The translations under genes were made by a program, and so were the position numbers. A model generated the notes under the pieces. The model saw only the letters and a program-made list of their open reading frames with translations, ran no database searches and was not told where the DNA came from. A DNA stretch of 64,000 nt from a virus. Location: positions 1 to 64,000 of IMG/VR virus record IMGVR_UViG_3300032334_001937; one strand, 5' to 3'. Of this stretch, positions 6,692-31,836 are shown piece by piece (position 1 is the first letter of the stretch; each line of letters opens with the position of its first letter).

Positions 6692-6765
6692 GCAGCAGTA
6701 GCTTAGTTGGTTAAAGCCCCGAACTCATAATTCGGTAATCGTAGGTTCAAGTCCTACCTGCTGCA
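6692..6765 (+). tRNA. tRNA with CAT anticodon (Met or Ile2)
   Basis: A 74-base cloverleaf: acceptor GCAGCAG/CTGCTGC, D-stem GCTT/AAGC, anticodon stem CCGAA/TTCGG with loop CTCATAA, and T-stem GTAGG/CCTAC with loop TTCAAGT. The anticodon CAT could be elongator Met, or Ile decoding ATA if C34 becomes lysidine. The first acceptor pair is G-C, so it is not an initiator tRNA. CCA is not encoded. Confidence 0.9.
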
Positions 6766-6789
6766 CTGCTATAATTAAATAGCAAATAT

Positions 6790-6862
6790 TGGTCCATAGC
6801 TCAATTGGCAGAGCGTCCGACTGTTAATCGGAAGGTTGTAGGATCGTGCCCTACTGGACCAG
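6790..6862 (+). tRNA. tRNA-Asn (GTT)
   Basis: A 73-base cloverleaf: acceptor TGGTCCA/TGGACCA starting with a T-A pair, discriminator G, anticodon stem TCCGA/TCGGA with loop CTGTTAA, and T-stem GTAGG/CCTAC. The T-A first pair and G73 fit bacterial Asn tRNAs. The T-loop (ATCGTGC) is atypical, beginning AT rather than TT. Confidence 0.88.
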
Positions 6863-6866
6863 CAAT

Positions 6867-6940
6867 GCGGATATCGCATAGTGATAGTGCGTAACCTTGC
6901 CAAGGTTAATGTGCGGGTTTGATTCCCGCTATCCGCTCCA
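6867..6940 (+). tRNA. tRNA-Gly (GCC), CCA encoded
   Basis: Acceptor GCGGATA/TATCCGC with discriminator T, anticodon stem TAACC/GGTTA with loop TTGCCAA, and T-stem GCGGG/CCCGC with loop TTTGATT. The mature body ends at 6937 and the next three bases are CCA, so the 3' end is genome-encoded. It starts only four bases after the Asn tRNA, which suggests processing from one transcript. Confidence 0.88.
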
Positions 6941-6941
6941 A

Positions 6942-7014
6942 GCCTTCGTAGCTCAGGGGATAGAGCGACGGACTTCTAATCCGCAGGTCGCTGGTTCAAT
7001 TCCAGCCGAGGGCA
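6942..7014 (+). tRNA. tRNA-Arg (TCT)
   Basis: Acceptor GCCTTCG/CGAGGGC with one T-G pair, D-stem GCTC/GAGC, anticodon loop CTTCTAA, T-stem GCTGG/CCAGC with loop TTCAATT and discriminator A. It reads AGA, the Arg codon favoured in AT-rich phage genes. It begins one base after the Gly CCA. Confidence 0.9.
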
Positions 7015-7021
7015 CTTAGGG

Positions 7022-21607: not shown

Positions 21608-21807
21608 TACTTAACTCCTTTCCCAAATTTTGCCCAAAGTCTTTCATGAATAAAATATCCAAGGGCTTCAATTCCAATATACAGGAGTGCTCCTAAACTG
21701 GCATACTCCCATTCTCCAGTGAATAAATAAATAATTCCAGCAAGAATTACTAGATGGAATGTTTCCCAGGTAATAGTTTTAATTGATGACTTCTTGGTTG
21801 ATTCCAT
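21607..21807 (-). CDS. DUF2061-like membrane protein
   Basis: The 66-residue protein has KTITWETFHLVILAG and LGYFIHERLWAKFG, matching the DUF2061 family (a two-helix membrane protein with a conserved HER-W motif). It lies right after the endolysin (TAATG), so a role in lysis or membrane permeability is plausible. Confidence 0.78.
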   Translation of the reverse strand: MESTKKSSIKTITWETFHLVILAGIIYLFTGEWEYASLGALLYIGIEALGYFIHERLWAKFGKGVK

Positions 21808-22601
21808 TACTTAGCCTTCAATGCCTTTAGTGTTGCTTGATCAACAATACCTGTAACTAGAAGTCCAGCTTTCTTTTGAAATTCTTGAACAGCCTTTGCA
21901 GTACCTGGACCAAAGGCGCCATCTGCTTTAATTCCAAGAAGTCTCTGAATAGTCTTTACGCCAGTTCCTTTTGAACCATTCTTAAGTGGTTTAAATGCTG
22001 CTGGTGCTGCTTTCTTAGCAGGTGCTGATGGTAATGATGCCTTAGCTGGTGCATCAGAAGATCCGACCTTAGACAACAAAGGAAGATTTTCTTCACCTGC
22101 ATATACTGGACGACCCCAACCAACAATTGCATTCATAAGCTTTAGCTTATTATCCTTAACGTATGCACGAGTTTTTTCTACGCACATTCCGCCATTTCGC
22201 TGATCTCCCTTTGCAGTTCCTGAAGTATTTCCTTCAATAACTTGGATAGTTCCGTTTCCGTTATTCTTAATACAAATGCCAACATGTGAAATACGATTTA
22301 CGCCATCATCTGGAAAATCAAAATAAATCCAGTCTCCTGGAGTTGGATCATCATTACGAGCATCTGCCCAGCGATCCTTCTTCTTAAACCAATCAGACGC
22401 TGCTACTGTTGCTGCTGTTTTTGGAAAATCTTTTACTCCTGCTGTGTATGCACACCAAGAAACAAATGACTGACACCATGGTAGAAAGTTTGCACCTGTC
22501 CACTTGCCATATTTTGTTTCATTATCTTTTGGACCTTCAATAGTCCCAATTTCTGCTTTAGCAACCTCAATAATTGCTTCTAGTGAACCTTTAACCGCCA
22601 C
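21807..22601 (-). CDS. Endolysin: CHAP-type domain plus PG-binding domain
   Basis: The 264-residue protein has an N-terminal amidase/endopeptidase domain of CHAP type with catalytic Cys43 (LPWCQSFVSWC) and a His in RISHVGICI. An Ala/Pro/Lys linker (about 165-200) follows, then a PG_binding_1 domain (LLGIKADGAFGPGTAKAVQEF). No signal peptide is present, so export needs a holin. A GTG start with AGGAGG seven bases upstream and its own promoter (22630-22658) are visible. Confidence 0.9.
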   Translation of the reverse strand: MAVKGSLEAIIEVAKAEIGTIEGPKDNETKYGKWTGANFLPWCQSFVSWCAYTAGVKDFPKTAATVAASDWFKKKDRWADARNDDPTPGDWIYFDFPDDGVNRISHVGICIKNNGNGTIQVIEGNTSGTAKGDQRNGGMCVEKTRAYVKDNKLKLMNAIVGWGRPVYAGEENLPLLSKVGSSDAPAKASLPSAPAKKAAPAAFKPLKNGSKGTGVKTIQRLLGIKADGAFGPGTAKAVQEFQKKAGLLVTGIVDQATLKALKAK

Positions 22602-23183: not shown

Positions 23184-23945
23184 TTATGCTTTATTCGCTA
23201 CATACAAGGCAGAAAACATTGGTGCAGCAACTGATGTTCCAGTTACAGTTGTTTTAACATTCTTGTAGTTATTTACAATAACATCACCACGAAAAGTAAC
23301 ATCCATTCCTGGTCCAGAGTTTGTATAGGTTGCAAGCGGACCAGAAGGCTTTGTTGCACCAACCCCAATAACATCTGTTACGCAGGATGGAAAACCAACC
23401 ATATTATTTTTTCCATCATTACCTGTTGCTACGTGAACTGGAATTCCCTGTGCTTTAAGTGATTGAACTGCTGCAGAAAAAACTAAATTTGTTGGACATG
23501 TGCCAGCAGTAAAGTTAATTCTTGACTGACTAATTGATACTGCATCAACACTATACTTTGATGCATTTTCAGATACCCACTTAATAGCCTTATCAAGCGC
23601 ATCTCCACTATTTAAAAATGATGTTGGGAATACATCGCTGATTCTTACAAAAATAATCTTTACATTTGGAGCTACAAGTTTAGCTGCTTGTGTAATATTA
23701 TATCCGTGATCAATATTTGAAATACTCCAGTTTGGAACATTTGCAGTTCCAGCTCCTTCTGCAAAAGATTTTCCATTTGCACAAGATTGATTTGATGTAA
23801 AGCATGCTTCATAGATAACTCCAGGAATCTTACTTGAATCAATTGCAGAGTCAATGATTACCAAAACCTTTTCATCTGCTGCATTTACAGGACTAACTAC
23901 AGTAAAACCTAGTGCTAGTACTACTCCAATAATTAACTTCTTCAT
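23184..23945 (-). CDS. Secreted subtilisin-like serine protease
   Basis: The 253-residue protein has a signal peptide (about 1-22) and the four subtilase landmarks in order: Asp32 (VLVIIDSAID), His80 (NIDHGYN), Asn176 (ATGNDGKNN) and Ser238 (TGTSVAAP). It is small and lacks a clear pro-domain, so it could be exported active. It probably acts outside the cell on surface proteins or on a competitor. A subtilase is rare in phages. Confidence 0.88.
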   Translation of the reverse strand: MKKLIIGVVLALGFTVVSPVNAADEKVLVIIDSAIDSSKIPGVIYEACFTSNQSCANGKSFAEGAGTANVPNWSISNIDHGYNITQAAKLVAPNVKIIFVRISDVFPTSFLNSGDALDKAIKWVSENASKYSVDAVSISQSRINFTAGTCPTNLVFSAAVQSLKAQGIPVHVATGNDGKNNMVGFPSCVTDVIGVGATKPSGPLATYTNSGPGMDVTFRGDVIVNNYKNVKTTVTGTSVAAPMFSALYVANKA

Positions 23946-24136: not shown

Positions 24137-24165
24137 AGTATACTCCTAAACACTAACTACGTCAA
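24137..24165 (-). promoter_or_regulatory. Consensus promoter, leaderless start at 24130
   Basis: On the minus strand TTGACG (24165-24160), a 17-base spacer and TATACT (24142-24137), then six bases and ATG. It overlaps the 3' end of the Ntn-hydrolase gene, so the small protein and subtilase can be expressed independently. Confidence 0.78.
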
Positions 24166-24676
24166 CTGGACCCATGCAAGATGGGCTAAATTTAATTGCT
24201 GCATTTACTGCTCCCACTACACGCTTTCTTGCATCCCTTGCTTTTTCTGTGGCATTCATATATCCATAAGCATACTCTGCCCCTGAACCCATGGCAAGAT
24301 AAGGAAGTGTGTATTTAGACAAAGACATGTCTGCAGAACTATGCTCATAAATATTTCCACGTACAGCAATAATTAAACCAAGGTCACCTTCTTTTGAAGT
24401 ATCTACCCAAAAATCATTATAGAATGCACGAAGTTGTTTAATAAACTTGGTTTGCATAAACTTGTCTGTATCTTTAATATCAGGTACGTAGGGGTTAAAG
24501 TTATAGCGAATGCGTTCACCATCCATAGATCCAGCATAGCCAATTAGATAAGGTCCTAGTTTCCAAACCTTTGGACTAGATAGTGCTAGAATAGTACCAT
24601 CGTCTGATGCACCACGATCTCCAGCCATGTAGATCTTATTGTTTATTTCATCACGAACTACTGCAATACAAGTCAT
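24146..24676 (-). CDS. Ntn-hydrolase, proteasome-beta/HslV-like
   Basis: The 176-residue protein begins MTCIAVVRDE, with Thr2 as candidate N-terminal nucleophile after Met removal. It shows IYMAGDRGAS and the GSGAEYAYGYM segment, matching the 20S proteasome beta/HslV fold. Actinobacteria have proteasomes, so a phage-encoded relative may degrade host proteins or be a stand-alone hydrolase; no unfoldase partner is visible. A strong promoter (24707-24735) and GGGAGGGG precede it. Confidence 0.8.
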   Translation of the reverse strand: MTCIAVVRDEINNKIYMAGDRGASDDGTILALSSPKVWKLGPYLIGYAGSMDGERIRYNFNPYVPDIKDTDKFMQTKFIKQLRAFYNDFWVDTSKEGDLGLIIAVRGNIYEHSSADMSLSKYTLPYLAMGSGAEYAYGYMNATEKARDARKRVVGAVNAAIKFSPSCMGPVDVVSV

Positions 24677-25057: not shown

Positions 25058-25237
25058 TTACTCCTCTCTATTTCTAATTGGACTTGTTAAAATCCAAATT
25101 ATTGTTGTTGCAAAAATTCCATAGCCAACAACAACCTTTGCACTGCCATCAAGTACAACCCAGGCAATAAACATTCCAAGGAGAGTCCATGCCTGATCAA
25201 GTAGATCATTGATTATATTTTTTATTAGTCTTACCAT
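25058..25237 (-). CDS. Small membrane protein, holin candidate
   Basis: The 59-residue ORF begins MVRLIKNIINDLLDQAWTLL and has two hydrophobic segments with a short loop (VLDGSAK). This form is frequent next to actinophage holins. It overlaps the 3' end of the large secreted protein gene by 7 bases and has GGAGGAATGAAAG upstream. It may be a second holin or an antiholin. Confidence 0.62.
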   Translation of the reverse strand: MVRLIKNIINDLLDQAWTLLGMFIAWVVLDGSAKVVVGYGIFATTIIWILTSPIRNREE

Positions 25238-27672
25238 CTTTCATTCCTCCTTGAACCACCTGAATTTGTTCCTCCAGATGAACCTCCTGTTGAACCACCA
25301 CCTGATGGTGATCCGCCTCCTGTTGCTAGTCCTACAGCATTAAGTGCTGCTCCTGTTGCTACAACTGTAGCCACAACCATATTTGTTGCTTCTTTTCTTT
25401 CTCCTGGAGTCATATCTGCTCCAATACTTCCAAGTGCTGCTAATGCTGCTCCTGGATCAGTAAATGCTGCTTGTAATAATTCTCCTGGATTTTGAACTAA
25501 TTCTACATTTGCTGCTACCTCTGCAGTAATAATTAGGACTTCTCCAGATTCAGATGTTCTAATTTCTACTGGTGTTTCTGGTGGAAGGTCTGCATATGAT
25601 ACTCCTGATGCTTTAACTTCCGCTGCAGAAATTGATTCTCCTGGCTTAAGATCTGCTATTAATGCTGCTACCACAATATCTTTTTGTTCTTCAGTTAATT
25701 CTTTGCCATTTTTTGCTTCCGCAACTATTTCTTTTAATTCTTTTTCCTGTGCAAGTTCTTCTGCTTTTGCTGCTGCTTCTTCTGCCTTAGCATCTTTTGC
25801 TTCTTGTGCTTTTGCTTCTGCTTCTGCCTTTGCATCTTCTTCTGCTTGTCTAGCAGCTTCTGCTTCTGCCTCTGCAGCTGCTGCTTCAGCTTTTGCATTT
25901 TCTTCAGCTTGTCGTGCTTCTTCTGCTTCTGCCTCTAATCTTTCAGCCTCTGCCTGTGCTGCAGCCTCTTCTGCTGCCATAGCCTCTTCTTTAGCTTGGG
26001 CTGCTGCTTCTTCTGCAGCAATTCTATCTGCTTCTGCCTCTAATCTTTCAGCCTCTGCCTGTGCTGCAGCCTCTTCTGCTGCTACTCTATCAGCCTCTGC
26101 TTTTTCTGCTGCAGCTTGGGCTGCTTCTGCTGCTGCTTCGGCTTGTGCTGCTGCAGCTTCTGCTACTCTTGCATTTTCTGATGCTTCTGCTGCTTGTCTT
26201 TCTGCTTCTGCTCTGGCTGCTGCTTGTCTAACTGATTCCTCTGCAGCAAGAGTGGCATCTACAATTGAATCTGCTGAACTAACTGCTGACCCCATAGCAG
26301 AAACTGCTTGCTCTACAAGAATTAATGCTGAATCTAATTGTGATTTAGCAGTACCAACCTGTGCTTGCCAATAAGAAACATCGTTTGCTGCTGTCACTAA
26401 ATTTGCCTGTGCTATTTGCAATGCTTGTTGTGCTGCATTTATTTCTGATTGCAATGCATTCTTATCTGATTGCAAACCAGATAAAACTGCCTGTGCTGCA
26501 GTCAAAGTCTGCTGTGCAGTAGTTAAATTATTTTGTGCAGTTGTTAATGCTTCAGCAAGATTTGTATTTGCTGGAGCAGGAGTATATGGTGTGTACCCAG
26601 TCCTACTAATATGTGCTGTAAAATTAGTAGAGTTTGTTCCAGTATTTAGCGGTACTGATATGCTTTGTAATTGATTATTCACATACTCAACTACCTGTAC
26701 TGGATTATTATAATTATTTCCATTCATACCAACAGAAGAAACATCTGCTTTCCAAGAACCATCTAATGGATTTACGTCAGCATCAAATGTCATATATGTC
26801 TTTGAAGTATTCCATGATCTTGTTGCATATGGAACAACACTCCATTCAACTAAAAGGCTATTGATGGTTGTTGAATATCTAACATATGTATCTGAGTCAA
26901 CATTCCACCAGTCACGGAAATTAATATAAACTGCTGGAGCATTTCCACCCCAACCTTGTGGGGTACCAAAAGATATCAAACCATTTGTAGCAACATAAAC
27001 ATCTGTATAGGTTTGGTCTCCAAGTTTAAGAGCATATGGAAGTTGCATTCTAAATGCTTGATCATCATCTTTAGGAAGATTTGTGGTTTGTGGATTGCCA
27101 GCATTTTCTAGCCTTATCTGGTTTTGAACTAATGCTACATCTCCTTGACGAGAAACTACTGTAGCACTATCTGTATTAACTATTGCTGTCTGGCTATCAA
27201 TCTGGCCATTAAGAACTGTCATGCTATCTGTCAAAGATAGGACTGTTGCTGATTCTGTGGCTACTGTTTGGGCTCTAGCAGTTTGAGTTTCTACTGCTTG
27301 AGCCAGGGAATTCTGAACAGAGATAACATTATTTACAGCCACAGTAGCACTATCTACTACTGTCTGAGCCTGTTGAATAGAGGTCTGAGCCTGTGTGATA
27401 GTGGCTGTAATGGTCTCTGTAGGGCTTGTAATGGCTGTTGCTTGGCTTTGTATGGCTGCCGTGGTAGTTTCAGCCTGAGTAATTGTAGCCTGTGCTACCT
27501 CAATTGTGGCTGTGGCACTTTCTGTTGTTGTGTGTACTATTAATGTTGATGATGAATCTATAACTACCGTTGCTGAATCAGAAGGGGTGACTTGAGCGCT
27601 TAATACTTCTTCCGCATGTGCGTGATCACTTGGACATAGAATGAACCATAATCCCACCAAAAAAGCCACCAA
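25231..27672 (-). CDS. Large secreted coiled-coil protein
   Basis: The 813-residue protein has a signal-peptide-like start (LVAFLVGLWFILCPSDHAHA). A Thr/Ser/Ala-rich helical region follows (to about 190), then a globular domain around 200-360 (ATNGLISFGTPQGWGG, NIDO/lectin-like). Next comes a long Ala/Glu-rich coiled coil (about 370-670), a small domain and a Gly/Ser tail. The start is doubtful: the frame has no ATG or GTG upstream of the TTG at 27672, so the basic n-region is missing. The DNA contains a 56-base repeat. Host-surface or virion function is inferred. Confidence 0.75.
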   Translation of the reverse strand: MVAFLVGLWFILCPSDHAHAEEVLSAQVTPSDSATVVIDSSSTLIVHTTTESATATIEVAQATITQAETTTAAIQSQATAITSPTETITATITQAQTSIQQAQTVVDSATVAVNNVISVQNSLAQAVETQTARAQTVATESATVLSLTDSMTVLNGQIDSQTAIVNTDSATVVSRQGDVALVQNQIRLENAGNPQTTNLPKDDDQAFRMQLPYALKLGDQTYTDVYVATNGLISFGTPQGWGGNAPAVYINFRDWWNVDSDTYVRYSTTINSLLVEWSVVPYATRSWNTSKTYMTFDADVNPLDGSWKADVSSVGMNGNNYNNPVQVVEYVNNQLQSISVPLNTGTNSTNFTAHISRTGYTPYTPAPANTNLAEALTTAQNNLTTAQQTLTAAQAVLSGLQSDKNALQSEINAAQQALQIAQANLVTAANDVSYWQAQVGTAKSQLDSALILVEQAVSAMGSAVSSADSIVDATLAAEESVRQAAARAEAERQAAEASENARVAEAAAAQAEAAAEAAQAAAEKAEADRVAAEEAAAQAEAERLEAEADRIAAEEAAAQAKEEAMAAEEAAAQAEAERLEAEAEEARQAEENAKAEAAAAEAEAEAARQAEEDAKAEAEAKAQEAKDAKAEEAAAKAEELAQEKELKEIVAEAKNGKELTEEQKDIVVAALIADLKPGESISAAEVKASGVSYADLPPETPVEIRTSESGEVLIITAEVAANVELVQNPGELLQAAFTDPGAALAALGSIGADMTPGERKEATNMVVATVVATGAALNAVGLATGGGSPSGGGSTGGSSGGTNSGGSRRNERW
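25922..26082 (-). repeat. 56-base direct repeat inside the coiled coil
   Basis: Bases 25922-25977 and 26027-26082 are identical, 105 bases (35 codons) apart. They encode repeated Ala/Glu helical units of the large secreted protein. Unequal recombination could change the coiled-coil length. Confidence 0.8.
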
Positions 27673-27754: not shown

Positions 27755-27785
27755 AAAAAAGAGGGCTAGCACTTGGCTAACCCCC
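27755..27785 (-). terminator. Rho-independent terminator after 27801
   Basis: On the minus strand a 10-bp stem, GGGGGTTAGC / GCTAGCCCTC with G-U pairs and a five-base loop, is followed by TTTTTT. It ends the surface-protein transcript. Confidence 0.85.
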
Positions 27786-27800
27786 TTAATTGTTGGCTTG

Positions 27801-29513
27801 TTAAGCGTTTACCTTCTTCTGAATCTTTACGACTAGAGCGGTAAGTGCTGTGATCTGCTTCTTAAGTGAAGCAATCATTGCAGAAACACTTGCAGATAGC
27901 TTGGCTACCGCATCAGATGCTTCCTGAGCTGCTGCTGTAGCAGCATCTGCAGCATCTGCAGCAGCAAGTGCTGCATCTGTGGCTGCGTTGGCTGCATCTG
28001 TTGCATCATTTGCAGCATCTCTTGCATCGTTAACTGGTGTGTTAACTACCTTTGCAGTTGCATTTACTACAACCTGACCTGCAGCAGGAAGTGATGCACC
28101 ACCTGTTGCAGAGATTGTTACAGTGTTTTCAGTCAAAGGCATAAATACCTTATATGTCTTTACTGTATCTGTATCAGTTGTAATTGATGTTGCTGTAAGA
28201 ACATCTGATCCTGAACCAAATGCATAAGTAGAAGTAATTCCACCTGTAGCAAATAGTGCAGAGTGTGTCTTACCTGAAACTGGAAGACCTGCTGCATCAA
28301 CAACCTGAACCTTGATAGTTGCTGCTTCACCTGGAAGATATTCAGCCTTATCAAATGTAAGCTTTACTGATGCTGCTGCTGCTTCTACACGAGTAGCAAC
28401 TGGAGCAGATACGATTGTGCCTGCTGCATTTCTAACTGTAATAGCAACTCCACCAGCCTTAACGCCAGTAAGAGTAAATGTTGCTACACCATCAACGATA
28501 GTTGCTGCTGTACCTGAATCAGATACTGTTGCTACATCAGATGAATTAGCATAAAGTGTTCCTGCTCCGACTGTTACGCCAGAAGCATCCTTTGCAACTG
28601 CCTTAACTGTAGTTGTGTTTGCACCAACTGCGATAACAGACTTAACTGGAGTTGCTACGATTGTAGCGATATCACCATAGAATGTTACCTGCTCTGTTGC
28701 AAGCACTGTACCTGTAAGTGTTGTAAGTGTAATTGTTCCAACTCCTGCTGTACCGTCAGCAAATACGCCAATGTAGTTGCCTGATGGGATTACTAGTGCA
28801 CGACCAAGAGCAGAGATAGTTGTAGCATTTGTGCCATAACCGATCAAACCTGTTCCTGAAACTGTTGCAAGAATTGACTCAGTTGCGTTTCCACCTGCAG
28901 CATTCTTAGGTGTAACAACGATAACTGCTGCTGCATCTGTTGATGTTGCCTTTGGTGCATACACTGAAGCATCTGCTGTTGCAGTTGTGACTTCACCAGC
29001 GTTTAGGACTGAAGTTGTTGTTGCTGCAGAAGGTGTAATATCTGCTGCCTTAACTGTTACTGTCCATGCAACTGATGGACCAGTTGATGGGCGAGTAGTA
29101 ATAATTCTTGCTTCGTATGTACCTGCAACTGATGGAGCAACCAATGAAACTGTAAACTTTGCAGTTACATATCCTGGTGTTCCAACTGTTGAGTTAACAT
29201 CAGCAGAAAGATTTCCTGCTGCAACTGCAACTGTAGCAGTTGTTGTTTCAAGCAATGTTAGTGTTGCATTCTTAGATGCACCTGTTGGTTGTAAGAACAT
29301 AGCAGAAAGCACTGTTGCTGTATCTGCTGCTGTTTCTGAGATAAACGACAAAGTTACTACTGCAGTTGCGGTTTCACCAGCAGTGATTGCATCTGTAGCA
29401 GAGTCAATCGTTAGTGAAGGTCCGATTACAGCAGCACTTGTCGGAAGTGCTGACATAACGCCAAAGGTCATAGCTGCAGCAAGACCTAGGGCAATTTTCT
29501 TAAATGAATTCAT
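27801..29513 (-). CDS. Secreted surface-layer-like protein with Ig domains
   Basis: The 570-residue protein has a clear signal peptide (MNSFKKIALGLAAAMTFGVM, cleaved near SAA). It continues with several beta-rich Ig-like repeats of about 90 residues (to about 490) and ends in an Ala/Asp helical linker with a Lys/Leu-rich coiled coil (SASVSAMIASLKKQITALTA). I recall the same layout from abundant surface proteins of low-GC aquatic actinobacteria. A likely role is coating the infected cell or virion. It has an AAGGAG ribosome site, and its own terminator follows. Confidence 0.78.
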   Translation of the reverse strand: MNSFKKIALGLAAAMTFGVMSALPTSAAVIGPSLTIDSATDAITAGETATAVVTLSFISETAADTATVLSAMFLQPTGASKNATLTLLETTTATVAVAAGNLSADVNSTVGTPGYVTAKFTVSLVAPSVAGTYEARIITTRPSTGPSVAWTVTVKAADITPSAATTTSVLNAGEVTTATADASVYAPKATSTDAAAVIVVTPKNAAGGNATESILATVSGTGLIGYGTNATTISALGRALVIPSGNYIGVFADGTAGVGTITLTTLTGTVLATEQVTFYGDIATIVATPVKSVIAVGANTTTVKAVAKDASGVTVGAGTLYANSSDVATVSDSGTAATIVDGVATFTLTGVKAGGVAITVRNAAGTIVSAPVATRVEAAAASVKLTFDKAEYLPGEAATIKVQVVDAAGLPVSGKTHSALFATGGITSTYAFGSGSDVLTATSITTDTDTVKTYKVFMPLTENTVTISATGGASLPAAGQVVVNATAKVVNTPVNDARDAANDATDAANAATDAALAAADAADAATAAAQEASDAVAKLSASVSAMIASLKKQITALTALVVKIQKKVNA

Positions 29514-29531
29514 TTTTCTCCTTGTTAGTTT

Positions 29532-31310
29532 TTATAATAAATTGAAATTATCAAGATAGTCCCGAACTTCTTCAGGCATTTCCCGACTATCCAATTCTAC
29601 CATACGTTGCTCTTGCTCTGCAAGTCGTTGCGATGAGCGTGACCAAGTATGAATATCAATCTCTATATTAGTATTCTTTGGTGTATGAGATAGAGCACCA
29701 AATACCGCACCAGTTACGGCATCCGATAAGTCCTTTGACTTTTTACGTGGGTGATCTACTTTTTTATCATTGATAATCTTAAGTTCAGACATTTCATCAA
29801 GCAGCAATGGGATATGTGGCATGGCAACACGCTCTTCATAAATCATCATTGCAAGGTCTTCATAATGTTTCTTACCAACAGAAACAGTATCAGTTCTTAT
29901 TCCCACTGCTTGAAGTTCCTGTTGAATATCAAATGATTGCCAGCGGTCAAATGTAACCATTCCAAGATTAAAGCCTTGTCTGCGAAGGTTTTGAATCCAT
30001 TGTTTTACTTCAGATAAATTGACTGGGCCTTCTACTTTTGGTTCCCACCAAACTACAGCATCAACAATAATAATTGGAGCAACTTGCTCATAGTCTTTAA
30101 CTACTTGTAGGTTTACCCATTTATCAACATGAGCAATTGCCACTGCACACTTATCGTGCTTTTGTGCAAGGTCAGCATGAACATAATAAACCTTATCTGG
30201 GTCTGGAACAAATGACTCATCAAACCTTTTATTATTATCAATTGGATTTCTAAGTGTCATACACTTTTCAAGCTTATCTTTTTGTTTAAAGAAAGCATCA
30301 GAAGCAAATGTTGGAACACAAGCAAAACGCTGCATGGCATCTCCCATGTCTGTAAAGAATGCTAACTTAAAGTCATCAATCTTTCTTGTTGGGTTTACTA
30401 CCCATGTTGGTCTCTTTAGTGCAAATACCCCAGGATATTTATATGCAACGATTTGATCTTCATCCCATCCAATATCTAAGTAATTGCCTTCAAGGTCATC
30501 TGGAAAGTCTGGATTCATAATAAATCTATGTGTATATGTAATTGTTTCTTTTTCCATTATTGAGTCTTCATATTTTTGTGAAATAAAGTCCCCTGGAAAA
30601 CGGGGGAATGAAAGTAGTGCAACCTTACCAAGGTCAGGAAAACGAGAGTCTACAGAAGCACGAAATGCCTTATAGATATTGTCTGCAGTTTTTCCCTGAT
30701 CATTTCCAGTTCCAACCTCTTGTGCAAAACCAGAAATTTCATCAAGTACTGCAAGAATCAAGTTCAAACCTTCGTGTGATTCTCTTTCTGAGTGACCAGA
30801 GTAAACCGTAATTGCTTTGTCAAACTCAATACTTTCAGCCTTAGCATTATACTTTCCTGCAAACCATTCAGACTTTTCAATCTTAGTTTTAAAGCCTTTG
30901 AAGAACACGTTCTTAGCTTGCTGAGCGTTAATAGCTACGTTAATAATATCAATTGCATCTCCTGCAGGCTTACCAAAGTATCTTGCAGGATCTTTTAAAC
31001 ATAGTAGTTTGTATACAATGTATGCACATGCTACAGTTGATGTAAAATCTTTTCCAGATCCCTTGCCAAGTTGCAGAATTACTTCATTTTTTGTATACTT
31101 TTTATAGTAACGATGGCCTTCTTCTGCTCCCATAATATCTACAAGATCTTCTTCTCTATAAATTTGGCTCATTGCTTCAACAATGTCATATTGTATATCT
31201 GACAATGGTGGCTGGTTTAGATATGATTCGCCCTCAACAAATGTTTTTGCATCAACAGGCATCTCTTCAAAGTTATTATTTTTTAATGCTTCAAGAAAAT
31301 CATTGAACAT
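29532..31310 (-). CDS. terL: Terminase large subunit
   Basis: The 592-residue protein packages phage DNA. The ATPase domain has a Walker A LQLGKGSGKDFT (about 80-91) and Walker B LILAVLDEISGF (about 185-196). The nuclease domain has VHADLAQKHDKCAVAI and VTFDRWQSF with the acidic residues, then DLSDAVTGAVFG. The ATG at 31310 is preferred over an upstream TTG. It overlaps the small subunit gene by 11 bases. Confidence 0.92.
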   Translation of the reverse strand: MFNDFLEALKNNNFEEMPVDAKTFVEGESYLNQPPLSDIQYDIVEAMSQIYREEDLVDIMGAEEGHRYYKKYTKNEVILQLGKGSGKDFTSTVACAYIVYKLLCLKDPARYFGKPAGDAIDIINVAINAQQAKNVFFKGFKTKIEKSEWFAGKYNAKAESIEFDKAITVYSGHSERESHEGLNLILAVLDEISGFAQEVGTGNDQGKTADNIYKAFRASVDSRFPDLGKVALLSFPRFPGDFISQKYEDSIMEKETITYTHRFIMNPDFPDDLEGNYLDIGWDEDQIVAYKYPGVFALKRPTWVVNPTRKIDDFKLAFFTDMGDAMQRFACVPTFASDAFFKQKDKLEKCMTLRNPIDNNKRFDESFVPDPDKVYYVHADLAQKHDKCAVAIAHVDKWVNLQVVKDYEQVAPIIIVDAVVWWEPKVEGPVNLSEVKQWIQNLRRQGFNLGMVTFDRWQSFDIQQELQAVGIRTDTVSVGKKHYEDLAMMIYEERVAMPHIPLLLDEMSELKIINDKKVDHPRKKSKDLSDAVTGAVFGALSHTPKNTNIEIDIHTWSRSSQRLAEQEQRMVELDSREMPEEVRDYLDNFNLL

Positions 31311-31836
31311 CGTGGACAACTGTAATCACTTCCCCATCTTTTGCAACAGAAGAAAGTCTGTGCATAATTAGGTCACGAATTTCTGGATGAGAAGATGCAA
31401 TATCTCTTAATATTGCAACAAGTGTTTCCTGACGTTTTTCAATCTCAACCATTTCTTCTGCAAGTTCCTTGTTCTCAAGAAGTCCTGCTTTTTGAAGCAT
31501 GTCAATTCTTGCTTTTTCAATATCAACAACAAGTTTAATTGCTTGAGTCTTTGCACTAAGATTATTAGTCATAGTTGCTTCATCAATAACTTCATAAGAT
31601 TTTGTAATCAGTTTACTATAGTGTGCATCCATTGCTGCAAGTGCTTCCTTTGCACGAGCACGGATTGCGTCATTAGCAGAAGCCATAACCTTCCACTCAT
31701 TAATAAGTTCTACAACACGAACTCTTGGTATTGCAAGCTCTTTAGAAATTCTTGTTGGGTCAGTACCCTTTAGGTACTCTGCAACAACTTGGTTTACCTG
31801 ATCAAGATGTTTAACTAGATCTTCTTCAGTTGACAT
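31300..31836 (-). CDS. terS: Terminase small subunit
   Basis: The 178-residue protein has an N-terminal helix-turn-helix-like region (TRISKELAIPRVRVVELINEW) and a long helical C-terminus, as in DNA-recognition terminase subunits. It lies directly upstream of terL and overlaps it. AGAGGGAAAAT precedes the ATG. Confidence 0.8.
   Translation of the reverse strand: MSTEEDLVKHLDQVNQVVAEYLKGTDPTRISKELAIPRVRVVELINEWKVMASANDAIRARAKEALAAMDAHYSKLITKSYEVIDEATMTNNLSAKTQAIKLVVDIEKARIDMLQKAGLLENKELAEEMVEIEKRQETLVAILRDIASSHPEIRDLIMHRLSSVAKDGEVITVVHDVQ

Follow-up and report, generated by a model that had tools for sequence, protein, structure and literature searches.

The window, a 64,000-nucleotide stretch of a 112,019-base viral record, carries on its minus strand an ATG-initiated gene for a 570-residue exported protein with a surface-layer-like layout (Table 1). 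The gene for the large terminase subunit lies immediately upstream, ending 18 nt before the surface gene starts, and the same gap spans 11–43 nt across the phage loci where it was measured (n = 88). Signals for expression are consistently present. A Shine-Dalgarno-like motif precedes the surface gene in 94 of 96 distinct phage copies, a terminator-like site lies less than 60 nt from the stop in 91 of the 94 copies with enough sequence, and codon bias of the window gene ranks second strongest among the 29 window ORFs tested. The original prediction, made from the letters of this DNA, had taken the gene's own terminator as a sign of dedicated expression. The terminator is indeed there, with a stem of 12 pairs, and the expression claim does not follow from it. 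With no more than 18 nt between the terminase stop and its own start, the surface gene is probably read together with terminase; the terminator would only close a transcript of both genes, and separate expression is not supported.

Table 1. Features of the surface gene locus in the window.
Feature	Position	Strand	Basis or place
Exported surface-layer-like protein gene	27801..29513	(-)	ORF list, translation, homologues in viral contigs and host genomes
Sec signal peptide, residues 1-27	29433..29513	(-)	Sequence
Body: four consecutive beta (Ig-like) domains, about residues 30-489	28047..29426	(-)	AlphaFold, weak Pfam Big_1
C-terminal helix, residues 492-569, Ala/Asp-rich linker and Lys/Leu coil	27807..28040	(-)	AlphaFold, host coil matches
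Shine-Dalgarno site AAGGAG, 4 nt 5' of the ATG	29518..29523	(-)	Sequence
Intrinsic terminator directly 3' of the surface gene	27759..27787	(-)	12-pair stem, then T run
Large terminase subunit	29532..31319	(-)	PHROG terminase matches, identity
P0002, 813 aa: N-terminal signal-like segment, long Ala/Glu coiled coil, hydrophobic C-terminal segment, basic end	25231..27672	(-)	Translation
HslV-family peptidase	24146-24676	(-)	Downstream of the surface gene
Protease-like protein with leader	23184-23945	(-)	Downstream of the surface gene
Endolysin	21807-22601	(-)	Downstream of the surface gene

The layout first read from the sequence, a signal peptide followed by several Ig-like repeats and a C-terminal Ala/Asp linker with a Lys/Leu coiled coil, was borne out in each part. 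The leader of the window protein comprises a positive n-region, a hydrophobic h-region and an AxA-like site, and a simple home-made sequence rule, used in place of a dedicated predictor, detected this pattern in every one of 96 distinct proteins from phages, among them that of the window. None of these 96 proteins contains cysteine. The linker and coil are present in the translation. An AlphaFold model computed from a 39-row alignment of phage and host sequences (mean pLDDT 86.3) placed consecutive beta domains at residues 33–489 and a single helix at 492–569, and Pfam returned a sub-threshold Big_1 match alone (20.5 bits versus a cut-off of 34.9). Traits of the S-layer type are thus present as a leader, a predicted beta-rich chain and a lack of cysteine.

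Fold comparison of the model returned the Bacillales S-layer proteins SbsC (4uid; Z 10.5, rmsd 8.2 over 172 residues), Sap (8s80; Z 9.3, rmsd 16.5 over 184 residues) and EA1 (8opr), all of which are chains of Ig-like domains, together with invasins, intimin, enzymes, complement and phage proteins. Since proteins outside the S-layer class match too, we rejected the fold search as proof of S-layer nature; the model supports a surface or fibre-type Ig-like chain and nothing narrower. The sole sequence match to a solved structure (E 0.19) was judged to be chance. SbsC, Sap and EA1 anchor by SLH domains, which, unlike in those Bacillales proteins, were not seen in the window protein.

Phage heads and tails often bear Ig-like domains. 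Tail or head proteins account for several of the model's top viral fold matches; the viral matches as a whole are generic. A capsid or tail decoration or fibre, with the host-like helix serving assembly or attachment, would also suit a gene that adjoins terminase. Such a virion component would, however, have to accommodate a Sec leader conserved in every distinct phage protein and nearest sequence relatives that are exported host proteins of the same layout. Moreover, the surface protein has no PHROG match, and the recognised tail genes lie elsewhere, at 50–63 kb. We consider a place in the virion improbable.

Relatives of the surface gene occur in at least 411 viral contigs. From each of three viral scans the best 80 matches were kept, out of at least 411, 97 and at least 352, respectively. 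The 145 viral loci examined, drawn from two of these scans and in some cases from the same contig, yielded the 96 distinct proteins, including that of the window; L257, L258 and the new loci of the third scan stayed outside these counts. All 145 loci carry the surface gene, and terminase was detected on 132; five viral loci have more than 1.5 kb of upstream sequence without a terminase relative. The protein had no match in 50,697 GenBank phage records. The window terminase is 53% identical to those of Streptomyces phages of the Stanwilliamsviridae such as Yaboi, and the annotated stretch after the Yaboi terminase contains no such surface gene. At one of the five loci lacking an upstream terminase relative (L214:4390-6099), an 86% identical surface gene follows ribonucleotide reductase on a 136-kb viral contig without the window-type terminase. 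The terminase of this contig is a different one, 79% identical to that of phage DSL-LC01, so that this single case represents a second phage group carrying the surface gene.

Phages often pick up host genes, and the surface gene might be a passenger without a role in infection. The body is nonetheless under purifying selection, with dN/dS of 0.06–0.23 in 11 chosen pairs. Because the relatives are spread over at least 411 viral loci and the body is constrained to this degree, the gene's presence is not a matter of chance. Expression signals are conserved as well, and the gene is found in another phage group. These observations, above all the dN/dS values and the conserved signals, make the passenger reading very improbable.

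A whole-protein search for cellular relatives matched 75 of 251 genomes of the actinobacterial family (best E 7e-78, residues 3–570), with phage and host proteins about 40% identical overall along their full length. This homology is judged by the E-values of the whole-protein search, the separate blastp having been run without low-complexity correction. The relatives are exported proteins of freshwater Planktophila-type actinobacteria for which we found no published name. They share the phage layout throughout, from an MSTKT leader (MSTKTTFKR start) through an Ig-like body to the Ala/Asp linker and coil. Their bodies, in contrast, are hypervariable between genomes and usually longer than the phage body.

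The original prediction depended on host relatives with the same C-terminus, and these were found. The 49-residue coil (A1) matches 36 loci in a genome collection, titled mostly as actinobacteria and lake MAGs, although some of these titles (e.g. Bifidobacterium, Proteobacteria) look unreliable. It has one match in each of six out of six isolate or single-cell genomes and is present in 65 of the 251 family genomes. Within a sample of 276 genomes of the class, 18 carry the coil, all of them also on the family list, and no coil match fell outside the family.

Gene order separates the host and phage branches. The host surface gene sits ahead of envelope-glycan-like genes and behind a gene (L157:3735-5132 and relatives) whose product we read as a fusion of an ECF sigma factor with a membrane and an outer domain. 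The fusion gene was matched in 95 of the 251 family genomes, a few of them weakly. Draft assemblies make up many of the hosts without a match: among 12 further loci behind the fusion gene, six contigs break off no more than about 0.5 kb beyond it. Other hosts carry different tails. Because contigs break at this point and other tails occur, the lack of a match in 176 family genomes is partly a product of draft assembly and partly real diversity. Terminase precedes the phage gene, whereas the sigma-factor/membrane fusion gene precedes the host gene, and we therefore assign the window protein, from homology and gene order, to a phage branch of the exported surface-protein family of Planktophila-type actinobacteria, and not to the host gene itself.

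Comparison of the two ends of the protein revealed distinct histories. The body tree was built from 38 of the 96 distinct phage proteins together with 42 of the 72 host rows recovered; two of the chosen host rows (L106b and L158b) are weak ORFs, probably unrelated. All the phage rows group in a single clade (support 100), next to host rows whose branches are far longer. The tail DNA tree, comprising 69 phage and 45 host tails and excluding those of type b (46 host tails were prepared, two of which had one name), required six changes between phage and host labels, at least four of them forced by strong branches. Four tail types are distributed among the 96 phage proteins (a1, 60; b, 18; a3, 10; a2, 8), with type changing at least nine times on the body tree, and an all-tail search found a host match for 78 of the 96 phage tails.

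Pairwise comparison of 18 chosen phages with 21 chosen host genes located the breakpoint. The L076 tail is 90% identical in DNA to that of isolate LanE-43 over the last 70 codons (dS 0.25), and the L011 tail is 88% identical to that of L169 over 70 codons (dS 0.33). Similarly, the L236 tail is 83% identical to that of L167 (dS 0.35; 88.5% over 183 aligned bases), and the L002 tail is 80% identical to that of P. versatilis (dS 0.46; 85.6% over 180 aligned bases). In these pairs, identity is mostly 40–60% through the body to about residue 495–510 and then jumps to 79–100%. The exchanged part is the predicted helix, which has been swapped with hosts several times, and several phage tails are recent host copies. 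Because some host-like tails are recent, the body is far less alike, the breakpoint falls at the helix and tail types change, it is the helix that is fitted anew to hosts, as expected of an anchor. We infer that this helix, common to hosts and exchanged with them, is the envelope anchor. The main new point, in our reading of these sequences, is this modularity: the phage body is one clade while its C-terminal helix is exchanged with hosts.

The window copy itself seems to carry no recent host tail. Its best host match is about 76% identical in DNA with dS of about 1, and it falls within a phage-only clade that accounts for 48 of the 69 distinct type-a phage tails. Type-b tails (SSSSTNATL...WNKKNPKAKV; L021, L037, L029 and others) are joined to nearly the same body. 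A search for their host source returned four of 296 order genomes, all at E 0.005–0.009 and judged to be chance, and none of 394 class genomes. The A2 query matched one of the 251 family genomes; the match is to a host surface protein, and lies in a similarity between its last body domain and the start of A2. Overall, the actinobacterial kinship and the acquisition from a host that had been proposed for this protein are both supported, the latter by virtue of the single phage body clade beside hypervariable host proteins and the recent host copies among the tails. Dedicated expression is not supported, and the S-layer, the superinfection block and the shielding or marking of cells are putative roles.

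Exchange at this locus is not peculiar to the surface gene. Pairwise identity of the body follows that of terminase loosely (r 0.22; 2556 pairs, 72 phages), and that of the HslV-family peptidase gene as loosely (r 0.06; 300 pairs), whereas the gene upstream of terminase is more tightly tied (r 0.59; 2211 pairs). We therefore rejected a cassette exchange special to the surface gene. Because the peptidase gene is as loosely linked to terminase as the surface gene is, recombination is general in these phages.

We propose, with belief and doubt in about equal measure, that a surface-layer homologue exported late in infection docks by a helix matched to the host and covers or displaces a presumed host layer. 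The leader, the full-length host homology, the purifying selection, the constant place behind terminase in most phages and the exchange of the helix are visible in the sequences; the late timing, helix docking, coating and receptor masking that we infer would follow one another in a simple order. The surface gene would be read late with terminase and strongly translated, and its leader would route the phage protein through Sec. The C-terminal helix would then dock where the host's own surface protein is held in the envelope, and the invariant phage body would mask the host layer or take its place, both on infected cells and on their debris. The variable host protein to which phages would adsorb would thus be hidden from competitors and from the phage's own progeny, which would block superinfection and allow release from debris. 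A conserved phage body set against a hypervariable host body fits a cover and not a mimic of one host strain. Late expression would be a poor time to stop superinfection and a good time to free progeny from debris. More tentatively, and on balance doubtfully, the protein may be an invariant, virus-coded layer substitute that re-coats cells late, with the helix as a host key re-captured from hosts and its DNA recording the infected lineage; any host assignment here would depend on the tail itself.

The protein might instead be shed from infected cells as a decoy that binds competing phages in the water, or as a mark that alters grazer recognition. It is exported, its Shine-Dalgarno site and codon bias point to strong translation, and it is homologous to a host protein that competitors may recognise. 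Yet a conserved phage body unmatched to each host's variable body would make a poor decoy for strain-specific phages, and an anchor helix would be expected to keep the protein on the cell. We give this possibility little weight.

Masking of the host layer has partial parallels in other phages. Llp of phage T5, a small lipoprotein, attaches to a receptor, hiding it and freeing progeny from debris. It is likewise a phage-made envelope protein that hides a receptor, whereas the window protein is a large homologue of the host surface protein itself. Planktophila-type actinobacteria rank with the commonest bacteria of lakes, and most of their phages have yet to be cultured. A phage S-layer has already been proposed in print: Gene_23 of methylophage Melnitz, which infects OM43, is described as a putative S-layer protein postulated to protect against superinfection by altered receptors (PMC9004378). 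Both phage genes are thus taken to be S-layer-like, and the role postulated for them is the same, the comparison being one of description and not of sequence. The passages on Gene_23 offer annotation and postulate, and contain no host homologue or anchor exchange (PMC9004378). The C. difficile endolysin CD16/50L is a phage protein that uses a host-derived anchor, a cell-wall-binding domain; it is an enzyme with an anchor, whereas the window protein would be a surface-layer-like coat (PMC9045149).

The isolated Planktophila phages are 39 kb, and the passages describing them name no such protein (PMC10202952). Nanopelagicales phages are named in PMC6802176, where a term search gave no hit for exported, signal peptide, Ig-like or surface. 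PMC7669872 briefly refers to an S-layer of planktonic actinobacteria. Planktophila and S-layer together led to one open-licence paper, whose passages on them were unrelated. The open-licence papers searched yielded nothing on freshwater actinophage Ig-like proteins from metagenomes, and no phage S-layer with full host homology and host-exchanged anchors.

According to the passages on Planktophila phages, their hosts lack CRISPR (PMC10202952), and phages of these hosts are therefore hard to assign; tail DNA would offer a testable host marker for the uncultured ones. One body kept while the anchor is taken from hosts in several lineages points to a receptor layer, possibly formed by the hypervariable host surface protein, over which phages compete. 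A single-gene hypothesis follows as well for how lytic phages may hide the cell surface from competitors.

The genes 3' of the surface gene bear on its role as well. P0002 follows it in many viral loci, varies between phages and has its hydrophobic C-terminal segment in all 25 homologues examined. It has a weak NCBIfam SEC10/PgrA surface-exclusion match (25.1 bits versus 70), no match in the phage collection, and none in six host genomes in a search without positive control; P0002 may be a membrane-held partner at the envelope. In other phages, too, an HslV-like gene is found close to the surface gene. The chief rival to masking of the host layer is envelope weakening, because the protease-like protein, the HslV-family peptidase and endolysin follow the surface gene. 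In that case the phage version would be a poor building block that loosens the envelope together with P0002, the protease-like protein and endolysin, and works as a lysis factor. The leader of the protease-like protein and the closeness of all three enzymes on the same strand are consistent with this, and docking by a host-matched helix would be expected here too. However, the body is strongly conserved and its domains are complete as in the host protein, so nothing about it looks defective. Furthermore, the surface gene stays behind terminase in most phages while the genes that follow it vary. We regard envelope weakening as unlikely and continue to favour masking or replacement of the host layer. 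Elsewhere in the window, four tRNA genes (Met, Asn, Gly and Arg) stand in a row on the plus strand at 6692-7015.
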